DNA from: Caldifarciminota bacterium
Lineage (GTDB): Bacteria > Hydrothermota > Tepidihabitantia > SM23-42 > JAOAFX01
Reading direction: 5' to 3'
Length of the DNA stretch: 38,360 nt
NCBI GenBank assembly: GCA_026416055.1
Contig: JAOAFX010000010.1
Coordinates: forward strand, 1-38,360
Below, piece by piece: positions 3,237 through 18,080 of this stretch; the stretch's first letter is position 1; every line of letters begins with the position of its first letter. Below the pieces are notes generated by a model, which worked only from the letters and a program-made list of their open reading frames with translations, made no database searches and was not told the DNA's origin. Made by a program: the position numbers and the translations under genes.

Positions 3237-4100
3237 ATGAATATTGAAGATTATCTTGCTGAAAAGAAAAAACTCGTCGATGAGGCATTGAGAAAATACT
3301 TTTCTGATAACAATCCATTCTTTGAAGTAATGTATTATTCCATTGACCGTGGCAAGAGGATAAGGCCAATCCTCGCAATAGCAAGTTATGAAGCAAATGG
3401 TGGCACAAAGCTGGACGAAATATTGTCCGTGGCCTGCGGTCTTGAACTGATTCATACCTATTCTTTAATCCATGACGATCTTCCAGCAATGGATAATGAT
3501 GACTACCGCCGCGGCAAAGAATCAGCCCACAAAAAATTTGGCGAAGCCCTTGCAGTCCTTTCTGGAGATGGGCTCTTTGCTTATGCATTTGAATTATTTA
3601 CTGAGTCAGAGACCAATCTCAAGCAGCGATTCCGCGTAATAAAAGAAGTTAGTGAGGCAGTAGGACCAAAAGGTGTTGTTTATGGTCAGGTTCTTGATAT
3701 CCAGAAACACGAAGAAGCCAACCCCAAAACTCTTCGCCAGATCCATCTGAACAAAACCGCCAAATTCATATCTTTATCGATAAAAGTCGGCGCAATCATG
3801 GCCAGTGCGCCCGATGAAATAATAAAAGTCCTCGAAAAAGGAGGTATATATCTGGGGATATTATTCCAGTACACTGATGACATACTCGATGTGACGGGTA
3901 AAAAAGAAAAACTGGGTAAGACACCCCGGAAAGATATATTCCAGGAAAAACTCACTGCACCGAGGGTATATGGTCTTTCCGGAGCAAAATTCAGAGCGCA
4001 GAGATATGCTGCACTGGCAAAAAATACATTCCACAGGCTTGGTCCTAACTTTGAATTATTCAATGAAATCACCGATTATGTTCTTAATCGCACATTCTGA
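3237..4100 (+). CDS. Polyprenyl (farnesyl/geranylgeranyl) diphosphate synthase
   Basis: 287 aa; GKRIRP, first Asp-rich motif LIHDDLPAMDND, second QYTDDILD, GDGLFAYAFEL. Confidence 0.95.
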   Translation: MNIEDYLAEKKKLVDEALRKYFSDNNPFFEVMYYSIDRGKRIRPILAIASYEANGGTKLDEILSVACGLELIHTYSLIHDDLPAMDNDDYRRGKESAHKKFGEALAVLSGDGLFAYAFELFTESETNLKQRFRVIKEVSEAVGPKGVVYGQVLDIQKHEEANPKTLRQIHLNKTAKFISLSIKVGAIMASAPDEIIKVLEKGGIYLGILFQYTDDILDVTGKKEKLGKTPRKDIFQEKLTAPRVYGLSGAKFRAQRYAALAKNTFHRLGPNFELFNEITDYVLNRTF

Positions 4101-4132: not shown

Positions 4133-5992
4133 ATGGCTTTACTTGAAAAAATTAATAAACCAGACGATTTGAAAAAATATTCAGTAGAACAACTTCAGGT
4201 CCTTGCCCGTGAGATAAGGGAAGAAATTTTAAAGACAGTTTCTCGTAATGGCGGTCATCTCGCACCATCGCTTGGTGTGGTTGAACTTACCCTTGCCCTT
4301 TACCGCGTATTTGATGCAGAAAAAGACAAGATAATATGGGATGTGGGGCATCAGACCTATGCCCAGAAACTGATAACCGGAAGAAGGGATAAATTTCCCA
4401 CTTTGAGAACTTATAAAGGTATCAGCGGTTTTCCCAAGCGAGAAGAATCGAGGTATGATAGTTTTAATACCGGGCATTCCTCAACTTCGTTATCTGCAGC
4501 AGCCGGTTTTGCAATAGCACGCGATTTCAGAGGAGAAAAATACCACATCATCAGTGTAATTGGTGATGGTTCACTCGGTGCCGGTATGGCATTTGAAGCC
4601 CTCAATTACATCGGCCAGTTGAAAAAAGATGTAATTGTTATCCTGAATGACAATGAGCGTTCAATTGGTGAAACTGTTGGAGCACTTTCACAATACTTGA
4701 ACAGGATTATTACGACAAGAACCTATAATAGATTCCGGGACGACCTCTGGGTTTTTCTCGGCAGATTCCCACCGTATATCCGGGACCGGGCGCGCAATCT
4801 CGCTAAAAGAATCCAGGAAGGATTGAAAGGTTTATACTCTCCTTCAGTAATATTTGAAGAACTCGGTTTCCGTTACATCGGTCCATTAAACGGGCACCGT
4901 TTAAATGAATTGATCGATACATTTTCCCGGGTAAAAGAAATGCATGGACCGAGGCTTGTTCATGTAGTAACTAAAAAGGGGAAAGGATATAAGATTGCCG
5001 AGGATTCGCCAGAAAAATTTCACGGTATTGGCCCATTCGATTTAGAGACCGGTGAAGAACTATATAAATACAATTCTTACACAAAGGTCTTTGGTGATGC
5101 GTTAGTAAAATTTGCAGAGAAAAATAAAAAAATTGTTGCCCTAACTGCTGGTATGTGCCTGGGTACTGGTTTAAAGGAATTCTCATTAAAATTTCCTGAG
5201 AGATTTTTCGATGTAGGCATTTGTGAACAGCATGCAGTAACGATGGCAGCAGCCCTTGCCCTGGAAGGTTATATTCCAGTCTGTGCGATATATTCCACTT
5301 TTCTCCAGCGTGCTTATGACCAGATTATACATGATGTCTGTCTTCAGAATGCTCCGGTCATATTTGCCATTGACCGTGCAGGTCTGGTTGGTGAAGACGG
5401 ACCCACGCATCACGGTCCTTTTGACCTTTCCTATCTTAATTGTATACCGAATATCATAATAAGCGCACCAAAGGATGGTGATGAATTGGTGTCTCTTTTA
5501 AAAACTGCCATAGAATATCGCAATGGTCCCTTTGCGATTCGTTACCCCCGTGGAATCTGCGACCCACCCCGTAGTTTTCACACTGATACACTCGAAATCG
5601 GCAAGTGGGAAATTCTCAATCACGGCAAAGATATAGCTGTTATCTCCTGTGGTTCAATGGTTAAGCCGAGCCTTGAAATTTTGTCTCTATTAAAAAAGGA
5701 AAATATCAATCCATATGTTATCAATGCCCGTTTTGTAAAGCCGATTGATTTTACCCTGCTTGATGCAATTGTTTCTGATTTAAAATCAATCTTTGTTATT
5801 GAAGAAAACACCTTTATCGGCGGCCTAGGTAGTACGCTCGCTACGTATCTCACCAGTAAGAATCATGCAATAAAAGTTAAAATAATTGCTCTTCCGGATC
5901 GTTTTATACCACATGGTCCAAGGGATACCATTCTGGGTGAAGTCGGGCTTGACACAAGGGGTATCGCTGATAAAATTATAGGTTCTTTATGA
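4133..5992 (+). CDS. dxs: 1-deoxy-D-xylulose-5-phosphate synthase
   Basis: 619 aa; DVGHQTYAQKLITGR, SSTSLSAAAGFA, VIGDGSLGAGMAFEALN, GICEQHAVTMAAALA, GLVGEDGPTHHGPFDLSYL. Confidence 0.98.
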   Translation: MALLEKINKPDDLKKYSVEQLQVLAREIREEILKTVSRNGGHLAPSLGVVELTLALYRVFDAEKDKIIWDVGHQTYAQKLITGRRDKFPTLRTYKGISGFPKREESRYDSFNTGHSSTSLSAAAGFAIARDFRGEKYHIISVIGDGSLGAGMAFEALNYIGQLKKDVIVILNDNERSIGETVGALSQYLNRIITTRTYNRFRDDLWVFLGRFPPYIRDRARNLAKRIQEGLKGLYSPSVIFEELGFRYIGPLNGHRLNELIDTFSRVKEMHGPRLVHVVTKKGKGYKIAEDSPEKFHGIGPFDLETGEELYKYNSYTKVFGDALVKFAEKNKKIVALTAGMCLGTGLKEFSLKFPERFFDVGICEQHAVTMAAALALEGYIPVCAIYSTFLQRAYDQIIHDVCLQNAPVIFAIDRAGLVGEDGPTHHGPFDLSYLNCIPNIIISAPKDGDELVSLLKTAIEYRNGPFAIRYPRGICDPPRSFHTDTLEIGKWEILNHGKDIAVISCGSMVKPSLEILSLLKKENINPYVINARFVKPIDFTLLDAIVSDLKSIFVIEENTFIGGLGSTLATYLTSKNHAIKVKIIALPDRFIPHGPRDTILGEVGLDTRGIADKIIGSL

Positions 5993-8900
5993 CCGCAATA
6001 ATACTCTTCCTTTTCAATCAATTCACAATGCCCTATGAAACAAAAATTTTTACCACTACTGATGGCAAATACATCATATATGCCCGATTTTATCAAGGTG
6101 AGTTCATATGTATTGACAGTGTCATCCACGTCGATAGATATTTAGCAATTGGTTTAAAAAAGAAAAATCAAAAATTATTGCTAAAAGAATTACAGAGCGA
6201 CTTGATAAAAACAGGTGGATACGCAAATAAAGGATTGTTTGGAACCCTTGAGATACCACTGCCCAAAGGTGGCTTCAGCGATTTCATGGGTGAAACTGGA
6301 AAACTCGATGTAGGTGGTTATATCAAAATCACCCTCGGAGGAACTGAAACCTTCTATTCAAATCTTCCTCAGGAACAGCAGAGGACCGCGCTCCTGCCGG
6401 AATTAAAAATGGAACAGGAAATGGCTGTAAATCTTGATGGTGAAGTAGGTGAACGTATGCATGTATTCATCGACCACAATTCCACGAGGGTGGATGAAAC
6501 CCAGAATAAAATTCGTGTAACATACAAAGGAAAGGAAGATGAAATACTCCAGGAACTTGAGGGTGGTGATACACAGTTATCTATTCCAGGAACAAGTTAT
6601 ACTGGTGATATTCCATCACATCAAGGGCTATTTGGATTGAAATCAACCGCCAAGCTGGGACCTGTGGATATTGTGGCGATTGCATCGAGAGAACAGACAC
6701 AGTTTACTGAGCAGGAGATAACCGGAGGTACTGAAAGCGTGCCGGATACGAACTGGTCAAAGGATTATGCCAAGCGCCAGTTCTTCTGGCTGGGAACGAA
6801 TGATTCAATTATTGAACTCCGTGTTTATATAGATGATGGCAATAATATGAACAATAATACTGGTATCACCCGTTATGCTTATGCCTATCTTGACCTTAAT
6901 GACGACAACATACCCGACGATACCACTGAAAAAGAAGAAGGATATTTTACATTGAAGTATGAAGGGACTGATAAGGACTATCAGTTTTTTGGAAGAAGGG
7001 TGAATATCATTGAGTTAAAAACTGGACTTTATCATACAGTCGAAGCGCTGGGAGTTTACTATCGTAAAATAGGTAGTGATGGTCAGGAAGACACAGTGGG
7101 TTTCGTTGGTTCAGATACCCTCCGGTTAAAACTCATATGCCCCAGAACCTTCAGGCAAACCTCACTCACCTGGCGTTATTATGAGTTGAAAAATTATTAT
7201 CAAATAACCTCACCCGGCGGACAGATAGATACATTGAAAATTTTCCATAATGTAGCAAACGGTATCGATGAAGAAACTTATCAGGGCAGGACTATATTAT
7301 CTATACTCGGACTTGATAATGACAATGATAATAAAGTAGATCCATACGGGGGTTATGGTGGCGGTGGGTTTGACTTTAATCGCGGTCTTTTGATCTTTCC
7401 TGACCCGATGCCCTTTGTGAATAATGAACTTCCTGAACCTGACTCAGAAATATACACAGATCCATTCTATTCAATAGCGAGGGGCAAATATTATATCTAC
7501 ACAAAGTCCGTTCAGGTTAAAAAAACTTTCAATCTGCCCTTTAACACAAAAAGGGTCAAGGTCTTTTTGAACGATGTACTTTTAGATTCAACCCAGTATA
7601 CTGTTGATTATGAAGCTGGAAAACTTGAATTCCTGAGACCAATTTCAGCCACCGACCGCATTCGTATTCAGGCTGAGTACTCCACCCTTTTTTCTGCTGC
7701 TCAGAAAAATCTTGTGGGTTTGCGGGCAAGCTCAAAAATTTTTGGCCAAGGCAATGTAGGTTCATCATTTTTTTATCGAACTGAATCTTACCAGGTTGCT
7801 CCATATGAACATATCCGCCTCAATGAGGAACCCCATAGCCGGTTGGTCTGGGAAGCAGACTTTTCCATCCCCGGTAAGATTCCATATTTAACTGAATTCA
7901 TCGACAACCTGCCACTCATACAAACCGAGGCAGAATCAAAATTCAACATAAATTTTGAAGGCGCCTATTCTTTTTCGAATCTGAATTCACGAGGTGAAGT
8001 ATATCTTGACGACTTTGAAGCTACAACAATCTCCCATTCAGCAGTATTAACAAAAAGTTACTGGCATCCCTGTTCCAGACCGTTAACAAAAGATATTCAG
8101 AATTTTGCCCGAAAAAGAATAATCTGGTATAACCCATCAGGCAACAATGTGTTCAGGATGGAAGATATTTATAATAATCCAACAGACCCAAAAGGGATTG
8201 CTGAAGTTTTACAGATCCAGTTTTTTCCCGAAAATGTCCAATCCTTTGCCGGATTAACCCAGTATCTCACGAGCAAGAACCTTGATGAATGTGAGAATAT
8301 TGAATTGATCGTCAAAGGTACCGGTGGAATGATTCATATCGATGTTGCCGAGGAAATCAGTGAGGACCAGTTACGCCGGAATAAAAGTGGAGAGATTGTT
8401 GGAGTTGGTACTTTTGAGGATGAAGATAATAACCCCAGAAATTTCTCATGGGATGCAATAAATGAAGATAGAGGCCTTGATAACGTAGCTGGAAGAGATG
8501 GCGAAAATATCCCTGGTGATGATGGGAATGATGATTATGTAGAAAACGATTATTCTGGCGGCGGTGTTAATGGAACCGAGCTAAATAGAATCTGGGATAC
8601 AGAAGACATAGACAGAAACGGCATATTCAATCTGAGCAACAATATTTATTATAGTTTTTCCATCCATCTCGATTCCACGAGGTTCCTTGTTGAAGGTGGG
8701 CTGAAAAACGACTGGAAAATGTTTCGCATACCCTTAAAAGACTCACTGGCACAGGATACTACATTTGGTGTTCCTAACTGGAAAAATATAAAGTTTGTTC
8801 GTATCTGGTTTGATAATTTCACAACGCCGCAGACGATTTATCTTCACAAACTCAATTTCGCGGGTAGTCGCTGGAAAAACAAGGGTATCATATCGGGTGA

Positions 8901-11427
8901 TTCACTCAATCCTGTTGATTCCACCGAAAAATTTGTGATTACCCCTGTGAATACCGAAACCCATACATATTATAAACCACCTTATCCCCTACCCATCGAC
9001 CCATTTACAGGGAAGACAATAAACGAAGGTGGAATAGAACTGGCATTGAATAACATAAAAGAAGGGCATACCTGTATTGCCTACCGCCAGATAGAAAATC
9101 CTGAAGATTACCGTGGATATGATACGCTTGTATTTTATTTCCGGACCATCCGCTCCAACCCCCGTATTGCCCTGCGCTTTGGTTCTGATTCCAATTACTA
9201 TGAGTACCAGACTGACTATGAAGAAGGAATCTTAGGATATAACAACTGGCGCAGATATCAAATCGTGATGGCCAATTTTCCTGAATTAAAGAAAAAGACC
9301 AAAGGTATAGGAAAGATTACTGAAGGAAATTATACAGTTTCGGGAAATCCTTCGCTCCAGAATAACAGGTTTTTTGAAATCAGAATTACCAATAAATTTA
9401 CAACACCACTCTCCGATACAATGTGGTTCAATGACATCAAATTATCATCACCTAAGAATGAAACCGGTAGAATAATGAGGTCGAGTGGCACGGTGAATAT
9501 TGCGGATCTCTCTAATATAACTTTCTCTTATTCAGAATCGAACGGCAAGTTCAAGAGACTATCTGAAGCCAAAGGCATTTCAGAATCAGGATCTGGAAAA
9601 AACTTTGGTGTCAATACCAGCCTGGCTCTGGACAAGATTTTGCCCAAGCACTGGAATTTCAGCATTCCCCTCGGTCTCAGCTATAACAAAAACATCCAGG
9701 AACCAAGATATTCTTCTTTCATCGCCAGAGATGTAGAACTTGACGATGTTAGCCGTCCACTTGAGATGTCAACGAGCACAACGAAAGGTTATAATATAAG
9801 TTTTTCCAAAACTGGCTCAAAAAACTGGTTAATAAAAAATACACTCGATAGATTGAGACTATCACACGACCGCGCGATTGCCACCTCATATACTGCACCA
9901 AAAGTTGATACAACTGATTTAAGAAATTATCGTGGTGAATACAGTATTAATCCATCACTATCAGTAAAGCTCTTGAAACAGACGTTGCACCTGATACCAC
10001 AGACATTATCCTTCACCACTTCCTATACCGACAATTTAGCGAAATCGTACGAAAGGGATAGTCTCGGCGAGCCTTATACAATAAGTCCAAATTATCCTCA
10101 ACATCGCAAAACGCTAACACCGAGTTTTTCGGCAAGTTATTCGCCACATCAAATCTTATCGACATCTTATTCTTTTGCCCAGACCAGGGATTCAGTGTCC
10201 GAAAAATGGCGTCTTGGAGAAGAGGTAAGCCGTAACCAGTCATTCAATAGCCGTGTATCGAAAGATTTGTTGATTATCAACCCATCTCTACAATTCAGCT
10301 CAAGTTATAATGAAGACCATCGGTTTGAATTGCGTCGTCCCTATGACAGAAGAGGGATCAACAATAGTTCCAATATCAGCATTTCCACGACCACCGATAT
10401 CAAAAAAATTGTCAGATTTTTTACCCGATTGCGCGATGAATCGAAGGATAGTCTACAGATTCCTGGCTCCCCATTGTGGGTTTTGAAACAGATTGAAACC
10501 TTCGTTAACTTAATCCAGAATCCGAGTATCAGTTTTTCCCGTACAAGGTCATCGGGTTATTTCACCCTCGTCCGTCCTGATTTGAAATATCAGTGGGGTT
10601 TCATTGATACAATTCCAACGGATGAACTGGATCCCGGTAGTTATGGCAGCCGTGGTCTTTCTGATAATTTCAATGTAAATTCCGGAATTAACTATGCAAT
10701 ACTAAACTTAACAGGAAGTTACACCCGACAGACGACCAGAAGCTTTGGCTACAGTGGAATCGAAAACAGAACAATAAGCAGATCTTATCCTAACGCGAGT
10801 TTAAGGATTTCAAGGGTTGAAAATCTACCCATTTTGAAAGATTATGCTTATACATCTTCGGTAAATATGAGTTTTAACCAGGACTTTCAGGAATTTTACC
10901 AGGTTCATCTCGATACCACACCCAGGTTGATTTCGGATAGCAAAACAATGTCATTCAATCCGCTCCTAGGCTGGCAGGTCAACTGGAAGCGGGGTATTAC
11001 TACAAATGCCAGTGTCAATTACCTGGAGACAAACGGCCATCAGTATTCTGACCTGTTTATCAATCCTTCAAAATCTACAAACTGGGGTGCTTCAATTTCT
11101 TTTGGCTACACATTCAGCGCGCCCAGGGGACTTGCAATTCCTCTACTCCAGGGGATAAAATTCTCATCTAATCTTACTACTAATTTAACATACAGTTATA
11201 ATCGCAACACAACTTATGCCGCATCTATAGAAAATCCAAATGAACTTGATACTGACAACCCAGTCGTTGACAACGAAAATAGTAACATAGATATCAGTCT
11301 GAGTTATAACTTCTCAACAAGCATAACCGGTGGTGCAACCCTTAACTACTCCCGTAATCAGGACCGTGTATTCAACAATAATTATCGTCGGGTCTCGTTA
11401 AACATATGGGCAAACATCAACTTCTGA
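5989..11427 (+). CDS. SprA/Sov-like giant outer-membrane beta-barrel protein (type IX secretion translocon family)
   Basis: 1812 aa; N-terminal GLFGTLEIPLPKGGFSDFMGETGKLDVGGYIKITLGG, HQGLFGLKSTAKLGPVDIVAIASREQTQ, NSRGEVYLDDFEAT, and a C-terminal half of alternating beta-strand repeats resemble SprA. Confidence 0.8.
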   Translation: MTAIILFLFNQFTMPYETKIFTTTDGKYIIYARFYQGEFICIDSVIHVDRYLAIGLKKKNQKLLLKELQSDLIKTGGYANKGLFGTLEIPLPKGGFSDFMGETGKLDVGGYIKITLGGTETFYSNLPQEQQRTALLPELKMEQEMAVNLDGEVGERMHVFIDHNSTRVDETQNKIRVTYKGKEDEILQELEGGDTQLSIPGTSYTGDIPSHQGLFGLKSTAKLGPVDIVAIASREQTQFTEQEITGGTESVPDTNWSKDYAKRQFFWLGTNDSIIELRVYIDDGNNMNNNTGITRYAYAYLDLNDDNIPDDTTEKEEGYFTLKYEGTDKDYQFFGRRVNIIELKTGLYHTVEALGVYYRKIGSDGQEDTVGFVGSDTLRLKLICPRTFRQTSLTWRYYELKNYYQITSPGGQIDTLKIFHNVANGIDEETYQGRTILSILGLDNDNDNKVDPYGGYGGGGFDFNRGLLIFPDPMPFVNNELPEPDSEIYTDPFYSIARGKYYIYTKSVQVKKTFNLPFNTKRVKVFLNDVLLDSTQYTVDYEAGKLEFLRPISATDRIRIQAEYSTLFSAAQKNLVGLRASSKIFGQGNVGSSFFYRTESYQVAPYEHIRLNEEPHSRLVWEADFSIPGKIPYLTEFIDNLPLIQTEAESKFNINFEGAYSFSNLNSRGEVYLDDFEATTISHSAVLTKSYWHPCSRPLTKDIQNFARKRIIWYNPSGNNVFRMEDIYNNPTDPKGIAEVLQIQFFPENVQSFAGLTQYLTSKNLDECENIELIVKGTGGMIHIDVAEEISEDQLRRNKSGEIVGVGTFEDEDNNPRNFSWDAINEDRGLDNVAGRDGENIPGDDGNDDYVENDYSGGGVNGTELNRIWDTEDIDRNGIFNLSNNIYYSFSIHLDSTRFLVEGGLKNDWKMFRIPLKDSLAQDTTFGVPNWKNIKFVRIWFDNFTTPQTIYLHKLNFAGSRWKNKGIISGDSLNPVDSTEKFVITPVNTETHTYYKPPYPLPIDPFTGKTINEGGIELALNNIKEGHTCIAYRQIENPEDYRGYDTLVFYFRTIRSNPRIALRFGSDSNYYEYQTDYEEGILGYNNWRRYQIVMANFPELKKKTKGIGKITEGNYTVSGNPSLQNNRFFEIRITNKFTTPLSDTMWFNDIKLSSPKNETGRIMRSSGTVNIADLSNITFSYSESNGKFKRLSEAKGISESGSGKNFGVNTSLALDKILPKHWNFSIPLGLSYNKNIQEPRYSSFIARDVELDDVSRPLEMSTSTTKGYNISFSKTGSKNWLIKNTLDRLRLSHDRAIATSYTAPKVDTTDLRNYRGEYSINPSLSVKLLKQTLHLIPQTLSFTTSYTDNLAKSYERDSLGEPYTISPNYPQHRKTLTPSFSASYSPHQILSTSYSFAQTRDSVSEKWRLGEEVSRNQSFNSRVSKDLLIINPSLQFSSSYNEDHRFELRRPYDRRGINNSSNISISTTTDIKKIVRFFTRLRDESKDSLQIPGSPLWVLKQIETFVNLIQNPSISFSRTRSSGYFTLVRPDLKYQWGFIDTIPTDELDPGSYGSRGLSDNFNVNSGINYAILNLTGSYTRQTTRSFGYSGIENRTISRSYPNASLRISRVENLPILKDYAYTSSVNMSFNQDFQEFYQVHLDTTPRLISDSKTMSFNPLLGWQVNWKRGITTNASVNYLETNGHQYSDLFINPSKSTNWGASISFGYTFSAPRGLAIPLLQGIKFSSNLTTNLTYSYNRNTTYAASIENPNELDTDNPVVDNENSNIDISLSYNFSTSITGGATLNYSRNQDRVFNNNYRRVSLNIWANINF

Positions 11428-12197
11428 AGTATTGTTTGATATTATCCTTCCTTTTCACCTGTCTGAATGCAAAAGAACCATATGATTATTTAGTGGAATT
11501 CAGTAAATTCGGCTGCCGGGCAATAGGGACTGACGGACACCGGAATGCATTAAAATACATCATTAAGAATTTAAAAAATCCCGAGATAGATTCCTTTACT
11601 GTTGATGGTATCTGGCTTTATAATATCTATCAGAAATTTCCCTCGGGCGAACCCCTTATTGGAATTGGTGCCCACTGGGATTCAGACCGTAACTGTCCGG
11701 GTGTAAATGATGGTGGTTCCGGTGTAGCATTGCTTTTGAAACTTGCTGATACCCTTACAAAAAATCCATCTGATGCGAGTATTCATCTTTTATTCTTTGA
11801 TGGCGAAGATGTTGAGCGAGCAGAACTTTATGGCTCTACCCATTTTGCCAGCAAATGCCTTGATCGGTATTCTTTTATTATAATCATTGACATGGTGGGC
11901 GATAAAAATCTGCAAATTTATAAAGAAGGCCATTCTACAAAATTTTTCCCTGCCCTTACGGATTCAATATGGCAGATTGGTATGGAGATTGCACCACATA
12001 TTTTCATTCCTGTTGTAAAATATTATATTATTGATGACCACATACCCCTGATTAAATACGGATTAAGGGCAATCAATATCATTGACTTTGATTACCAATA
12101 CTGGGACACTGTCTTTGATACACTCGATAAATGCAGTAAGGAAAGTCTCGATATTATGTATAAATTCCTTCTGAAAATAGTCTACCGGGAATATTGA
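11406..12197 (+). CDS. M28-family glutaminyl-peptide cyclotransferase (glutaminyl cyclase)-like protein, secreted
   Basis: 263 aa; signal peptide; GAHWDSDRNCPGVNDGGSGVALLLKLA, LLFFDGEDVERAELYGSTHFA, IIDDHIPLIKYGLRAINIID...YWDT resemble QC-type M28 proteins. Confidence 0.8.
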   Translation: MGKHQLLKYCLILSFLFTCLNAKEPYDYLVEFSKFGCRAIGTDGHRNALKYIIKNLKNPEIDSFTVDGIWLYNIYQKFPSGEPLIGIGAHWDSDRNCPGVNDGGSGVALLLKLADTLTKNPSDASIHLLFFDGEDVERAELYGSTHFASKCLDRYSFIIIIDMVGDKNLQIYKEGHSTKFFPALTDSIWQIGMEIAPHIFIPVVKYYIIDDHIPLIKYGLRAINIIDFDYQYWDTVFDTLDKCSKESLDIMYKFLLKIVYREY

Positions 12198-12208
12198 TAG
12201 AGGATTCT

Positions 12209-12526
12209 ATGAGTCGGAAAGAATCGATTATACTAATTTTTTTAATCTTAATCTTTTCACTGATTAACATCTCCAATTATCTTGAGTCCAGGTCTAACAG
12301 TCGCTATTATCAACTAATCATCAAAGAAGAGGCAAAACAAATCTCTATAAATAGTGCAAGCCTTGAGGAAATTGAACTACTTCCTGGCATAGGACCTGCT
12401 TTAGCCCGCCGCATAATTGAATATCGTGAGAGAAATGGAGGATTTAAAGAAATTTCAGAAATCAAAAAAGTTAAGGGTATCGGCGAAAAATTGTTTGAAA
12501 AAATCAGGCCCTATATAAAACTGTAG
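12209..12526 (+). CDS. ComEA-like membrane-anchored helix-hairpin-helix protein
   Basis: N-terminal TM segment then ISINSASLEEIELLPGIGPALARRIIEYRERNGGFKEISEIKKVKGIGEKLFEKIRPYI; ATG at 12209 preceded by AGAGGAT is preferred over the TTG at 12194. Confidence 0.9.
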   Translation: MSRKESIILIFLILIFSLINISNYLESRSNSRYYQLIIKEEAKQISINSASLEEIELLPGIGPALARRIIEYRERNGGFKEISEIKKVKGIGEKLFEKIRPYIKL

Positions 12527-12574
12527 GAAAGGTGTTGAATTATTGACAATTAAATTTATTTACTGATATCAAAA

Positions 12575-13507
12575 ATGAATAGAAGAATTGATAAAATTGC
12601 TTACCTTTTCCTCTTTCCAGCATTGATTGTAATTATAATCTTTAGATTCTATCCCATCGTACAGGCAATTGGAATGAGTCTCTATAACTGGTCAATAGCC
12701 GGACCTTTGAAATTTATTGGCTTTAAGAATTATTACCGGCTTTTTATCGACCCTAAATTTTACCAGTCACTTCTCAACACTTTCTGGTATCTTCTTGGTG
12801 TAGTTCCTGCAACAGTTGCCATTTCTATCTTTATTGCCTATCTTTTAAACCAGAAGATTAAGGGACAGGGTATATATCGGACAATCTATTTTTTACCTGT
12901 CGTCACCTCCATCGTTGCAATCAGTGTAGTATGGAAATGGATATTCAATCCGGACAGGGGGATACTAAACGCTGTGTTCCATCTTGCAGGATTAAAAGGA
13001 CTGAAATGGTTGAATGATTCAAGGGGAATTTTTGAGTTGTTATTCAATGCTGAACTGTCTGGATTCCTTGCCGGTCCTTCGATTGCACTTATAAGCTTGA
13101 TGATAATGACTATCTGGCACAATCTCGGTTACTGCATAGTGATCTGTCTTGCTGGACTTCAGAACATCCCTTCCCATTATTACGAGGCGGCAAGGATTGA
13201 TGGTGCCCAAAGATGGCAACTATTCTGGAAGATAACCATTCCACTTCTCTCACCGACTATATTCTACCTTCTGATAACCCAGTCCATAATTGCGTTTAAC
13301 ACCTTTACACCTGTATATGTCATGACCCAGCCTCCAGGCGGACCCCTTGGGACAACAAGCCTCGTTGTCTATTATCTGTATGAGCAGGCATTCCGGCTCT
13401 GGAATCTCGGCTATGCAAACGCCATTGCCTTTGTTGTGTTTATCATAATCTTCAGCCTGACAAAAATTCAGCAAAGATTTCTCGAGCAAAGGGTTCATTA
13501 TGAGTAG
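12575..13507 (+). CDS. ABC sugar transporter permease (MalF/UgpA type)
   Basis: 310 aa with multiple TM segments; EAARIDGAQRWQLFWKITIPLLSPTIFY matches the EAA loop. Confidence 0.93.
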   Translation: MNRRIDKIAYLFLFPALIVIIIFRFYPIVQAIGMSLYNWSIAGPLKFIGFKNYYRLFIDPKFYQSLLNTFWYLLGVVPATVAISIFIAYLLNQKIKGQGIYRTIYFLPVVTSIVAISVVWKWIFNPDRGILNAVFHLAGLKGLKWLNDSRGIFELLFNAELSGFLAGPSIALISLMIMTIWHNLGYCIVICLAGLQNIPSHYYEAARIDGAQRWQLFWKITIPLLSPTIFYLLITQSIIAFNTFTPVYVMTQPPGGPLGTTSLVVYYLYEQAFRLWNLGYANAIAFVVFIIIFSLTKIQQRFLEQRVHYE

Positions 13508-14309
13508 AAAGTTCATCCACATGATTTTACTTATGGGTGCTCTGATAATGGTTTTACCATTTTTCTGGATGGTTTCTACTTCATTAAAAACCCTTGATGA
13601 ATCACTCCAGTTTCCACCCACCCTCTTTCCCAAGAAGATAGTATTTAATAATTTTTTAGAGGCATTTAAAGAAGTCAACTTCACGCGCTATTTTATCAAT
13701 ACTTTAATCATGACCACAGGTTCGGTCTTGCTTGTCTACCTCACATCTGTCCTTTCTGCATATGCATTCGCAAGGTTAAGATTTCCAGGACGGGAACTAT
13801 TTTTCACATTATTCCTTGCCATGATGATGATACCGATGCCTGTCTATCTCGCTCCTTCCTATGTAATATTGAGTAAATTTAAATTCATAGATACCTACTG
13901 GGCACTGATAATCCCATGGGGCGTCAACATTTTCGCCATCTTCCTTTTAAGACAGCATTTTAAATCTTTACCGCAGGAACTCTTCGATGCTGCAAAAATA
14001 GATGGCTTGAATCATCTCCAGATTATAAGATATATCGTCCTGCCCCTTTCCCGGCCGGTGATTGTCACCATCGGCATATTTGAAATCATTACTAACTGGA
14101 ATTCATTCCTCTGGCCTCTGATCGTTACCCACTCCGATTCAATGCGAACAATTCAGACCGGGCTCGCCTATTTTGCACAGGCAGAAGCCACCAATTACCC
14201 ACTTTTGTGTGCGGCATCCACCTTCACAACCCTCCCTTTAATAATCCTTTACTTCTTCGTCCAGCGTGAAATCATGGAGTCATTTGCCCGCAGTGGGCTC
14301 AAGGAATGA
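13500..14309 (+). CDS. ABC sugar transporter permease (MalG/UgpE type)
   Basis: 269 aa; ELFDAAKIDGLNHLQIIRYIVLPLSRPVIVT EAA loop; overlaps the preceding permease gene. Confidence 0.93.
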   Translation: MSRKFIHMILLMGALIMVLPFFWMVSTSLKTLDESLQFPPTLFPKKIVFNNFLEAFKEVNFTRYFINTLIMTTGSVLLVYLTSVLSAYAFARLRFPGRELFFTLFLAMMMIPMPVYLAPSYVILSKFKFIDTYWALIIPWGVNIFAIFLLRQHFKSLPQELFDAAKIDGLNHLQIIRYIVLPLSRPVIVTIGIFEIITNWNSFLWPLIVTHSDSMRTIQTGLAYFAQAEATNYPLLCAASTFTTLPLIILYFFVQREIMESFARSGLKE

Positions 14310-14334
14310 TGGCCTTTTTTCAAAAGTGAAACCT

Positions 14335-14547
14335 ATGAAAGTTATAGAAGAAAAAGATGTGAAATGGCACTCAGGGAAAGATAATAAAACATATCCAAGG
14401 TGCGTAAAGGTGGATGGTGTCTGGCGTGAAGTATTCTCTTTTGAAAAAAAGATTTTTGAAGAATTTCCAACCCGGAAAAGATATATTATATTTCTGTGCC
14501 ATATCGGTGATAATGAAATTGTAAAAGTAAAATGTATTGAATATTGA
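14335..14547 (+). CDS. Small hypothetical protein
   Basis: MKVIEEKDVKWHSGKDNKTYPRCVKVDGVWREVFSFEKKIFEEFPTRKRYIIFLCHIGDNEIVKVKCIEY (70 aa); follows the ABC permeases on the same strand. Confidence 0.6.
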   Translation: MKVIEEKDVKWHSGKDNKTYPRCVKVDGVWREVFSFEKKIFEEFPTRKRYIIFLCHIGDNEIVKVKCIEY

Positions 14548-14571
14548 CTTATGGAAGATTTTAGTTATAAT
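14544..14571 (+). promoter_or_regulatory. sigma70-like promoter of tRNA-Val (TTGACT-N16-TATAAT)
   Basis: TTGACT 14544-14549, 16 nt, TATAAT 14566-14571, 19 nt before the tRNA. Confidence 0.8.
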
Positions 14572-14590
14572 AAAAACCGTTATGGAAAAT

Positions 14591-14666
14591 GGGCGGTTAG
14601 CTCAGTCCTGGTTAGAGCGTCTGCTTGACATGCAGGAGGTCACCCGTTCAAGTCGGGTACCGCCCA
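14591..14666 (+). tRNA. tRNA-Val (GAC)
   Basis: Acceptor GGGCGGT/ACCGCCC, anticodon arm TCTGC-TTGACAT-GCAGG, T-loop TTCAAGT, discriminator A; no encoded CCA. Confidence 0.96.
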
Positions 14667-14801
14667 TCCCTGGATTGAGTTCAAGAAGCCCGGTACCAGA
14701 ATTCCAGACAATTTCGACCCAGAAGTCTTCGAGTAAGTATTTGTCCAGAATAAAACCGAATGGGATTCTGGCACAGGCAAAGATAAGGAAGGGTTAGATC
14801 G

Positions 14802-15503
14802 ATGGAAGAGGTCCTGGAAAGGCTGGCAAGGATAAAGGACCTTTCAGAGGAAATAAAAAAGAATGAAGTTATTTTAAAAAACATCCCTGAAACAATAGAC
14901 AGGTTAAAAAAGGAAATAGATCAAAAAAACAGGCAAGTTAATCAGATGAAAAATAGACTCATAGAAATAAAAAAATTGTATAAACTGAAAGAGGGTGACA
15001 TCGCCGATAATGAAAACAAAATAAATAAGTTAAACCAGCAAATCCATGCAGTGAAGACGAACGAAGAATACCGGGCAATTTTGAAGGAAATTGAATTTCT
15101 AAAAAATGCCCGTACCGCGATAGAAGATGAGATGATCAGCCTCCTTGAAGAAGAAGAGACCCTTAAACAATCGTTAGGCAATCTTGAAAGAGAAATTAAA
15201 GAATTCGTTGAACAAAAAAACAAGGAAATCCAGGATCTTGAACGACAAAAAGAACAAATCGCTCAAACCCAAGAAAAAAATAAATTTATCTTCCAGGATG
15301 AAATAAAAAAATTGCCTGAGGAAGTGAGGAAAATATATGAAAGGATTATAGCCGCAAGAGAAAGGGCAATCTGTGTTGTATCTGACGATGGGATATGCAC
15401 TGGTTGTTTTACAAATGTCACACCCCAGACACTCAATGAATTAAGAAAAAAAGACAGACTGGTCCTCTGTGATTCCTGCGGCAGAATTTTAATTTATGGT
15501 TGA
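14802..15503 (+). CDS. Coiled-coil C4 zinc-ribbon protein (CT398-like family)
   Basis: 233 aa; long coiled coil then CTGCFTNVTPQTLNELRKKDRLVLCDSCGRILI. Confidence 0.9.
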   Translation: MEEVLERLARIKDLSEEIKKNEVILKNIPETIDRLKKEIDQKNRQVNQMKNRLIEIKKLYKLKEGDIADNENKINKLNQQIHAVKTNEEYRAILKEIEFLKNARTAIEDEMISLLEEEETLKQSLGNLEREIKEFVEQKNKEIQDLERQKEQIAQTQEKNKFIFQDEIKKLPEEVRKIYERIIAARERAICVVSDDGICTGCFTNVTPQTLNELRKKDRLVLCDSCGRILIYG

Positions 15504-15927
15504 TGAAAATGTCGTCGTCTATATTGATGGTGCGTCCTGTGGTAATCCCGGACCTGCAGCCGTCGGCTTTGTGGTATACACAAAAGATAATCTGAAAGAA
15601 CCACTTGTCCGCTTTTCCCGCTATATAGGGGTCACAACCAACAATGTTGCTGAATACGAAGCACTCATCTCAGCCTTGAAATGGCTTCTTAAAAATCAAA
15701 TCCTGAAAGCTGAAATATATACTGACTCTGAACTCATCTATAAACAATTATGCGGCATATACCATTTAAAAACCGAGCATATAAAACAACTTGCAGAGCG
15801 TGCGCGAAGACTCCTCAATAGATTCAAAGAGGCAGATTTAAAGGTCATCAGCCGTGAAAACAATCGGGAGGCAAATAAACTGGCACAGGAGATAGTCCGA
15901 AAATACAAAAAACTGAAGCATGTTTAA
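15496..15927 (+). CDS. RNase HI-like ribonuclease H
   Basis: 143 aa; VYIDGASCGNPGPAAVGFV, NNVAEYEALISAL, IYTDSELIYKQL, NREANKLA. Confidence 0.93.
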   Translation: MVDENVVVYIDGASCGNPGPAAVGFVVYTKDNLKEPLVRFSRYIGVTTNNVAEYEALISALKWLLKNQILKAEIYTDSELIYKQLCGIYHLKTEHIKQLAERARRLLNRFKEADLKVISRENNREANKLAQEIVRKYKKLKHV

Positions 15928-17269
15928 AAAGAAAGAAATAAATCCAGGAAGGCTGATTATACTGGGGTATGTCGCCATTGCCCTTGCTGGCACGATCCTG
16001 CTATCTTTGCCTTTTTCGACTACAAGTGGAATATCTATTATAGATGCCTTATTTACATCAACATCGGCGCTGTGTGTCACCGGCTTGACTGTAAAAAATA
16101 CCGCAACCGATTTTACATTCTGGGGAAAATTTATAATACTTTTGCTGATCCAGATTGGCGGTCTTGGTTACATGACACTCTCCACTGCCTTCTTTTTCTT
16201 TCTCGGTAAAAAAATTTCATTGCGTGACCGCATGTTATTCAAGGAATCAATAAATGTTTTAAGTTATGAAAACCTAATGCGTTTTGCCTGGAGAGTCTTA
16301 CGGATAACATTAATCGTAGAACTGATCGGAGCCCTGCTTTTTTATCTTTGTTTCATCCAGAGATTCAATCCAGTTATGGCGGCAGGCCATGCAATTTTCC
16401 ACTCAATATCGGCATTCTGCAATGCCGGTTTTTCTACTTTTTCAGAGAATCTATCGCTGTTTCACAACTCGTGGGTTGTTCCTCTGGCTGGAGCGCTGCT
16501 CATTATCACTGGTGGTATCGGATTCCTTGTGGTCTCGGATATATACTATGTAATAATCAAAAAAGAGAAAAAAGATTTTACCTTACACACCAAAATTGTT
16601 TTAAAAACAACACTGATTCTTTTAATTATCGGAACCGCATTTATATTTCTGTATGAAGGTAATAAAAGCCTTGTTCAATACCCACTACATTTAAAATTGA
16701 TCCACTCATTTTTTCATGCAGTAACACCAAGGACTGCTGGCTTCAATACCGTAAACATCGCCATGTTTTCACCTGTCACATTACTTTTAATACTCTTATT
16801 TATGTTCATCGGCGCCTCGCCCGGTGGCACAGGAGGTGGAGTGAAGACAACCACTTTTGCCCTCATTACAGTATGGGTTAAAGAATTATTATTGGGAAGG
16901 TATAAAAATGGTATCTCATTAATGAAAAAAAGAATTCCCGCAGAACAGGCAATGCGTTCATTCCTTCTCATATTCCTGTCCATATTTTTTATCCTGATCA
17001 CTATTTTCCTGATTCTCATGTTCAGTCCAGCCCATCCATTTAAATTAATTTTTGAAGTATTTTCAGCTTTCGGTACAGTGGGTCTCTCACTCGGCTCTGC
17101 TATGAACCCAAGCTGCAGTTATGCATGCGAACTTTCAACAGTGGGTAAACTCCTGATAATCATTTTGATGTTGGTGGGCAGGATAGGGACACTCACTATT
17201 GGTAGTGCTATAGTCCGACCACATGAAGTAGATTATTCATACCCTGAAGAACATATCGCGATAGGTTGA
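15920..17269 (+). CDS. TrkH/KtrB-type potassium uptake channel
   Basis: 449 aa; TSTSALCVTGLTV, FHSISAFCNAGFSTF, VTPRTAGFNTV, SAFGTVGLSLG selectivity-filter repeats. Confidence 0.96.
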   Translation: MFKKKEINPGRLIILGYVAIALAGTILLSLPFSTTSGISIIDALFTSTSALCVTGLTVKNTATDFTFWGKFIILLLIQIGGLGYMTLSTAFFFFLGKKISLRDRMLFKESINVLSYENLMRFAWRVLRITLIVELIGALLFYLCFIQRFNPVMAAGHAIFHSISAFCNAGFSTFSENLSLFHNSWVVPLAGALLIITGGIGFLVVSDIYYVIIKKEKKDFTLHTKIVLKTTLILLIIGTAFIFLYEGNKSLVQYPLHLKLIHSFFHAVTPRTAGFNTVNIAMFSPVTLLLILLFMFIGASPGGTGGGVKTTTFALITVWVKELLLGRYKNGISLMKKRIPAEQAMRSFLLIFLSIFFILITIFLILMFSPAHPFKLIFEVFSAFGTVGLSLGSAMNPSCSYACELSTVGKLLIIILMLVGRIGTLTIGSAIVRPHEVDYSYPEEHIAIG

Positions 17270-17293
17270 CATTTCCCTAAAAATGTATATAAT
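17266..17293 (+). promoter_or_regulatory. sigma70-like promoter (TTGACA-N16-TATAAT) between trkH and trkA
   Basis: TTGACA 17266-17271 overlaps the trkH stop codon; 16 nt; TATAAT 17288-17293. Confidence 0.78.
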
Positions 17294-17393
17294 TAAGGCA
17301 TGTTCTGGCAACCAGAAGATTCAAACGGGGTTTATTTTTTATTGAGTTCTGCCCCGACAAATTTACTGTTTACTCATCTTAAATGATAAATCT

Positions 17394-18080
17394 ATGAAAC
17401 AATTTGTCGTCATCGGTCTGGGAAGATTTGGCTCCAGTATTGCCCGTGCCCTCTCTGAGAAAAACTTTGAAGTCCTGGCGATAGACCGGAGTGAAGAAAG
17501 GATCAAGGAGATTGGAGGAACGGTTTCTCAGGCCGTGGTCGTGGATGCCACTGATGAAAAGGCACTGAAAGAATTAGGTATAAAAGAATTCGATACTGCA
17601 ATCGTGAGCATCGGTGAAAATATTGAAGATAGTATTATGGTGACTCTTTTATTAAAGGAACTGGGAGTAAGACAGGTAATCGTTAAAGCCCATAATGAAC
17701 TCCATGCCAAAATACTTAGCAAAGTAGGTGCAGACAAAATAATCTTTCCAGAAAAAGAAATGGCTGAAAAGCTGGCAGAAAGTCTGGCAAGTCCAAAGAT
17801 ATTTGACTATATCGAACTTTCCACCGAATATGGTATTCTGGAAATAGTTGCGCCCAAAAAGTTCTGTGATAAAACACTCGGTGAATTGAAATTGAGGGAA
17901 AAATATGGGATAAGTGTTATGGCAATAAAGAGAAAAATGCCTTACACCAGGCCTGATGGTTCGCCTGATTTCAAAGAAGAGATAATCATCGGCCCTGGTG
18001 GGGCTGATGAAATACTCCAGGGCGATATCCTGGTAATCCTGGGAAGATATAAAGACCTGAATCGTATCGAAAAATTATGA
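17394..18080 (+). CDS. TrkA/KtrA-type potassium transport regulatory subunit (RCK_N + RCK_C)
   Basis: 228 aa; FVVIGLGRFGSSIARALSEKNFEVLAIDRSEERI and a C-terminal TrkA-C domain. Confidence 0.95.
   Translation: MKQFVVIGLGRFGSSIARALSEKNFEVLAIDRSEERIKEIGGTVSQAVVVDATDEKALKELGIKEFDTAIVSIGENIEDSIMVTLLLKELGVRQVIVKAHNELHAKILSKVGADKIIFPEKEMAEKLAESLASPKIFDYIELSTEYGILEIVAPKKFCDKTLGELKLREKYGISVMAIKRKMPYTRPDGSPDFKEEIIIGPGGADEILQGDILVILGRYKDLNRIEKL

Follow-up and report, generated by a model that had tools for sequence, protein, structure and literature searches.

Does the outer-membrane translocon of the type IX secretion system (T9SS) keep a glutaminyl cyclase (QC) as a partner outside the Bacteroidetes? 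The question is raised by a locus in the window (the whole 38,360-nucleotide stretch of DNA analysed here), in which a long sprA-like gene runs into a gene for a secreted protein of the M28 family. A sequence-only reading of this DNA had taken the overlap as a sign of a conserved functional pairing between secretion and the formation of N-terminal pyroglutamate. The source assembly is 85% complete and consists of 163 contigs; its SprA-bearing relatives carry the names candidate division WOR-3 or Stahlbacteria, and the NCBI phylum is Caldifarciminota.

Identity of the two overlapping genes

The two genes lie in a tight run on the same strand (Table 1) and overlap by 22 bp, as first noted. The dxs gene is found directly upstream of sprA across the window's order and at numerous further loci within the WOR-3 class. 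By its sequence, the 1812-residue product is SprA: it matches TIGR04189 with 332.5 bits (4.9e-99), exceeding the curated equivalog cut-off of 200, it contains the SprA_N domain (PF14349; 1.4e-21), and the structure of SprA from F. johnsoniae (6h3i) aligns with it in four collinear stretches (1.7e-31), which bears out the sequence-only reading. Pfam scans of most other ORFs in the window revealed no further T9SS gene, again in line with that reading. The dxs and sprA genes and the potassium-uptake genes trkA/trkH are close together in the window (4133-18080) and in a record of Parabacteroides distasonis (L240), and this proximity, shared with a Bacteroidota record, might go back to an ancient common gene order.

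Table 1. Gene run around sprA and a further secreted protein in the window
Feature	Coordinates	Strand	Evidence and remarks
Polyprenyl (farnesyl) diphosphate synthase, opens the run	3237..4100	+	PF00348 (5.2e-55); NF045485 above its cut-off; upstream of dxs-sprA in relatives too
dxs, 1-deoxy-D-xylulose-5-phosphate synthase	4133..5992	+	PF13292 (1e-116); 4-bp overlap with the start of sprA
sprA/sov-like T9SS outer-membrane translocon, 1812 aa	5989..11427	+	TIGR04189, PF14349, PDB 6h3i; homologues in 145/147 WOR-3 genomes
Type II (animal-type) glutaminyl cyclase-like secreted M28 protein, 263 aa	11406..12197	+	PF04389; profile; AlphaFold2 fold; residue table; third zinc ligand Asp234
ComEA-like helix-hairpin-helix protein	12194..12526	+	PF12836, TIGR00426; overlaps the QC stop
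Predicted secreted protein adjoining tatC, 494 aa	34976..36460	-	no Pfam match

The ORF downstream of sprA matches PF04389 (M28 family). When an alignment profile of its product and relatives was compared with the PDB, bacterial QCs came out on top (6qro with 4.9e-75, 3gux, 3tc8 and 4fuu), human QC scored about 1e-24, and the best aminopeptidase 2.4e-20. An AlphaFold2 model of the protein (pLDDT 92.5) had bacterial QCs as all of its top 13 matches in a fold comparison, counting some structure entries that have been proposed for re-annotation as QCs (PMC7948796). The profile, the predicted fold and the residues of the active site all mark the protein as a type II (animal-type) QC, and the QC-like motifs singled out beforehand are indeed present in it. 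An identity as an M28 aminopeptidase was ruled out by the profile scores and the fold matches. The fold match was also strong to the QCs of Fimbriiglobus (7d1b) and Acidobacteriales (7d18), i.e., type II QCs occur outside the Bacteroidota; unlike in the window, no link to a secretion gene has been described for those two in the literature searched. A search for viral relatives of the QC found none. The signal of the protein is predicted to be of the signal-peptidase-I type in the window's order, and many QCs of other phyla are predicted lipoproteins.

Recurrence of the sprA-QC pair across phyla

A comparison of coordinates placed the QC gene directly 3' of sprA, on the same strand, in 22 of the 23 QC-bearing genomes of the window's order; in the remaining one (G072) the two genes lie on different contigs, split by contig ends. 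At least two further phyla show the same arrangement, so that it is not unique to one genome and the pairing outside the Bacteroidetes proposed from the sequence proved to be conserved. Among 20 genomes of the G148 phylum, whose records are labelled Eisenbacteria, 19 have sprA and 17 the QC, all 17 QC genes being located directly behind sprA. In the phylum of G147, with a QC in 52 of 59 genomes, 30 loci were inspected, and the 3' end of sprA lies immediately upstream of the QC gene, on the same strand, in 22 of the 27 that were testable (three were limited by contig ends, and five had enough upstream sequence without sprA), which is a lower bound, since unlinked cases partly reflect an upstream sequence of 1.5 kb. 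At two of these five exceptions (L299 and L300) the gene before the QC encodes a protein that ends in a sorting sequence like the type IX C-terminal domain (CTD). The QC gene also adjoins sprA in the TA06 record SM23_40 (L056) and in a genome of another WOR-3 family (G010). Chance adjacency was ruled out by the recurrence across phyla; the pairing is real and conserved among them. No mention of it was found in the Q-rule papers searched for it or in a wider literature search of limited extent.

Outside the window's order, most members of the class possess SprA but lack a QC; the enzyme is therefore not required for the SprA export route. Unlinked QC genes occur in the WOR-3 families f11, f20, f21, f28, f29 and others, and in G002 the QC gene and sprA are on the same contig, 334 kb apart. 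The gene run in WOR-3 can be written as ispA-dxs-sprA-(QC)-comEA. A comEA-like gene directly after sprA is a second conserved neighbour in QC-less WOR-3 genomes (L022, L025, L026, L030 and others).

This alternation of sprA-comEA and sprA-QC-comEA is expected if the QC gene was lost from an ancestral order, and the pair could then be a relic: two genes that were neighbours in a common ancestor and have stayed so through drift or a shared transcript, the pore and the cyclase having no functional tie. The unlinked QCs within WOR-3 would fit such a history, as would the frequency of Gln at position +1, which does not differ between linked-QC and QC-less genomes (see below). However, sprA and the QC gene remain paired at 17/17 and 22/27 loci of the two other phyla while their other neighbours are replaced, the genes 3' of the QC being rimP, nusA and infB in Eisenbacteria-like loci, prmA and ppx in L100 (G147 phylum), and including T2SS ATPases in the TA06 record. 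Because the neighbours change and sprA and QC stay together, a functional link is favoured over a frozen gene block. In a QC tree, built by a quick method and with long branches flagged, the window's order contributes a single clade of QCs, placed close to unlinked WOR-3 QCs; elsewhere in the tree, a second group holds the linked QCs of TA06, G010 and the G148 phylum. This topology fits re-linkage as well as descent of the pair. A relic of this kind appears unlikely, if worth keeping in view, and the conserved gene order suggests that sprA and the QC gene probably form a working link.

Metal site of the QC and glutamine at position +1

Active-site columns were read from an alignment of 89 QCs, both linked and unlinked. 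Glu134, Asp135, Asp162, Asp211 and Trp233 showed no substitution, a few rows being gapped there; E134, D162, D211 and W233 are the equivalents of the catalytic Glu201, Asp248, Asp305 and Trp329 and are invariant where aligned. Two of the zinc ligands, Asp159 and Glu202/Asp, correspond to D102 and D135, with a single substitution of Asp102 (Asn, in one unlinked WOR-3 QC). The protein thereby resembles the type II QCs of Bacteroidota (PgQC, TfQC), with which it shares the fold, the family, the active-site Glu, Asp, Asp and Trp, and an Asp in place of Glu202 of the human enzyme (PMC7948796). Unlike in PgQC and TfQC, the third zinc ligand, His330 in human QC and His299 in PgQC (PMC7948796), is replaced by Asp234. 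This Asp was found in every aligned member of the window's order except G067, which belongs to the same family as the window's genome and keeps the His; both other phyla have His wherever aligned, and one unlinked WOR-3 QC has Lys.

Because the third zinc-ligand His is Asp there, QC activity in the window's order, presumably with an altered metal site, must be regarded as uncertain. The protein might even have left QC chemistry and be kept beside SprA as a different, aminopeptidase-like metalloenzyme or as an inactive binding protein, a view that is consistent with the near-uniform Asp within the order, the His in both other phyla, and the lack of a Q-rule (Gln at +1 in most signal-peptidase-I substrates) in that order. 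However, no other catalytic or ligand position varies within the order, a sign that catalysis has been retained, the fold and the profile are QC-like, and the sister genome G067 has the His, and we consider so complete a change of function rather improbable.

Gln at +1 was counted in stretches of WOR-3 genomes, not in whole genomes, using a simple signal-peptide predictor that is blind to the +1 residue; filtered counts were used, as the unfiltered count was swamped by membrane proteins. With the predictor, 12 of 107 proteins (11.2%) had Gln at +1 in the linked-QC set and 12 of 99 (12.1%) in the QC-less set (p=1.0), both above a background of about 3%. A count that leaned less on the predictor gave 15/118 (12.7%) vs. 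16/107 proteins (p=0.70), and in CTD-bearing cargo the values were 5/18 (about 28%) vs. 8/34 (p=0.75), i.e., there is a mild preference for Gln at +1 in CTD cargo. None of the three counts showed an association with the presence of a QC. The species of Bacteroidetes average 71% Gln at +1 (PMC5837995); our Prevotella control, in which 12 of 33 proteins (36%) had Gln after the site and another count yielded 20.5%, remained below the published value, the predictor being insensitive. At this sensitivity a genome-wide Q-rule was rejected for the linked-QC stretches, where 11.2% and 12.7% equal the values of QC-less relatives. That a full rule of the Bacteroidetes type operates and was simply missed is very improbable, since the predictor under-called Prevotella as well, but the linked-QC set is significantly below this very control (15/118 vs. 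12/33, p=0.004) and no different from its QC-less relatives. An enrichment of Gln, as the sequence-only reading had anticipated, therefore exists relative to background (about 11% vs. 3%, and 28% in CTD cargo), but it is equal without a QC and far from the Q-rule; the proposed pairing of secretion with pyroglutamate formation is thus partly borne out: the conserved gene pair stands, and general N-terminal pyroglutamate formation by the enzyme is conjectural, given the equal counts and the zinc ligand changed in the window's order.

A probable type IX-like export route and the proposed role of the linked QC

A survey of 147 WOR-3 genomes detected the T9SS sorting domain TIGR04183 over its cut-off in all of them (up to at least 36 scored per genome, the count for the window's own genome being a lower bound), and PorV-family proteins likewise in 147/147, with NF033709 above cut-off in 146, including the window's own genome, whose best PorV-family match reached 9.4e-56. 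The genome search suggested by the sequence-only reading was thus successful for PorV and type IX CTDs; GldM (TIGR03517) was found in none of the 147 genomes, nor in the control genomes (those of L100 and its phylum, and a Prevotella record). There was no GldM hit in the 59 members of the G147 phylum, though the G147 record is labelled Bacteroidota. The T9SS has been described as confined to the Bacteroidota or its close superphylum (PMC7906972, PMC12421860), and it goes unmentioned in the published account of a cultured WOR-3 strain; SprA, PorV-family proteins and T9SS sorting domains are near-universal in WOR-3, a phylum for which the literature searched holds no report of a T9SS. As in the T9SS of Bacteroidota, SprA scores over the curated cut-off, and PorV-family paralogues and Por_Secre_tail CTDs accompany it. 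The putative WOR-3 route differs in its phylum, in a SprA of about 1800 aa (2403 aa in F. johnsoniae), in an undetected GldM (for which the controls gave no hit either), and in the QC gene joined to sprA, which is lacking from the sprA locus of P. distasonis, the single one inspected in Bacteroidota. The gene of PgQC, in contrast to that of the window, is in an operon with PG_2158 and hemG (PMC10653852).

We think it reasonably probable that sprA followed by a type II QC gene is a conserved two-gene functional unit in at least three phyla outside the Bacteroidota, in which the QC caps the Gln of exported cargo. SprA would serve as the pore through which a type IX-like export route carries CTD cargo across the outer membrane. 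The QC would be exported to the periplasm and there cyclise N-terminal Gln on cargo or on outer-membrane proteins that expose Gln after signal cleavage, which might protect these proteins before or during their passage through SprA. The lack of a genome-wide Q-rule in the window's order makes it probable that the QC there acts on few substrates or that its metal site, with Asp for the third His, functions in altered form. We infer co-expression of the two genes as well as the catalysis and substrates of the QC, and, judging from sequence and gene order, the capping of exported proteins is the most likely function of the linked enzyme. A more elaborate picture is tentative: a type IX-like route, possibly without a GldLM motor, may extend across WOR-3 and related phyla, with sprA kept joined to a dedicated QC that modifies a subset of the cargo, and with a re-built metal site of three Asp in the WOR-3 order.

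In this context, the His-to-Asp change can be used to probe how much alteration type II QCs accept at their metal site, and the WOR-3 relatives that have the same SprA but no QC form a natural control group. As for why T9SS cargo carries a pyroglutamate cap, arguments have been advanced for stability and against sorting (PMC10653852); the sprA-QC pair, recurring over several phyla, is an independent and testable hint at a tie between capping and export across the outer membrane.
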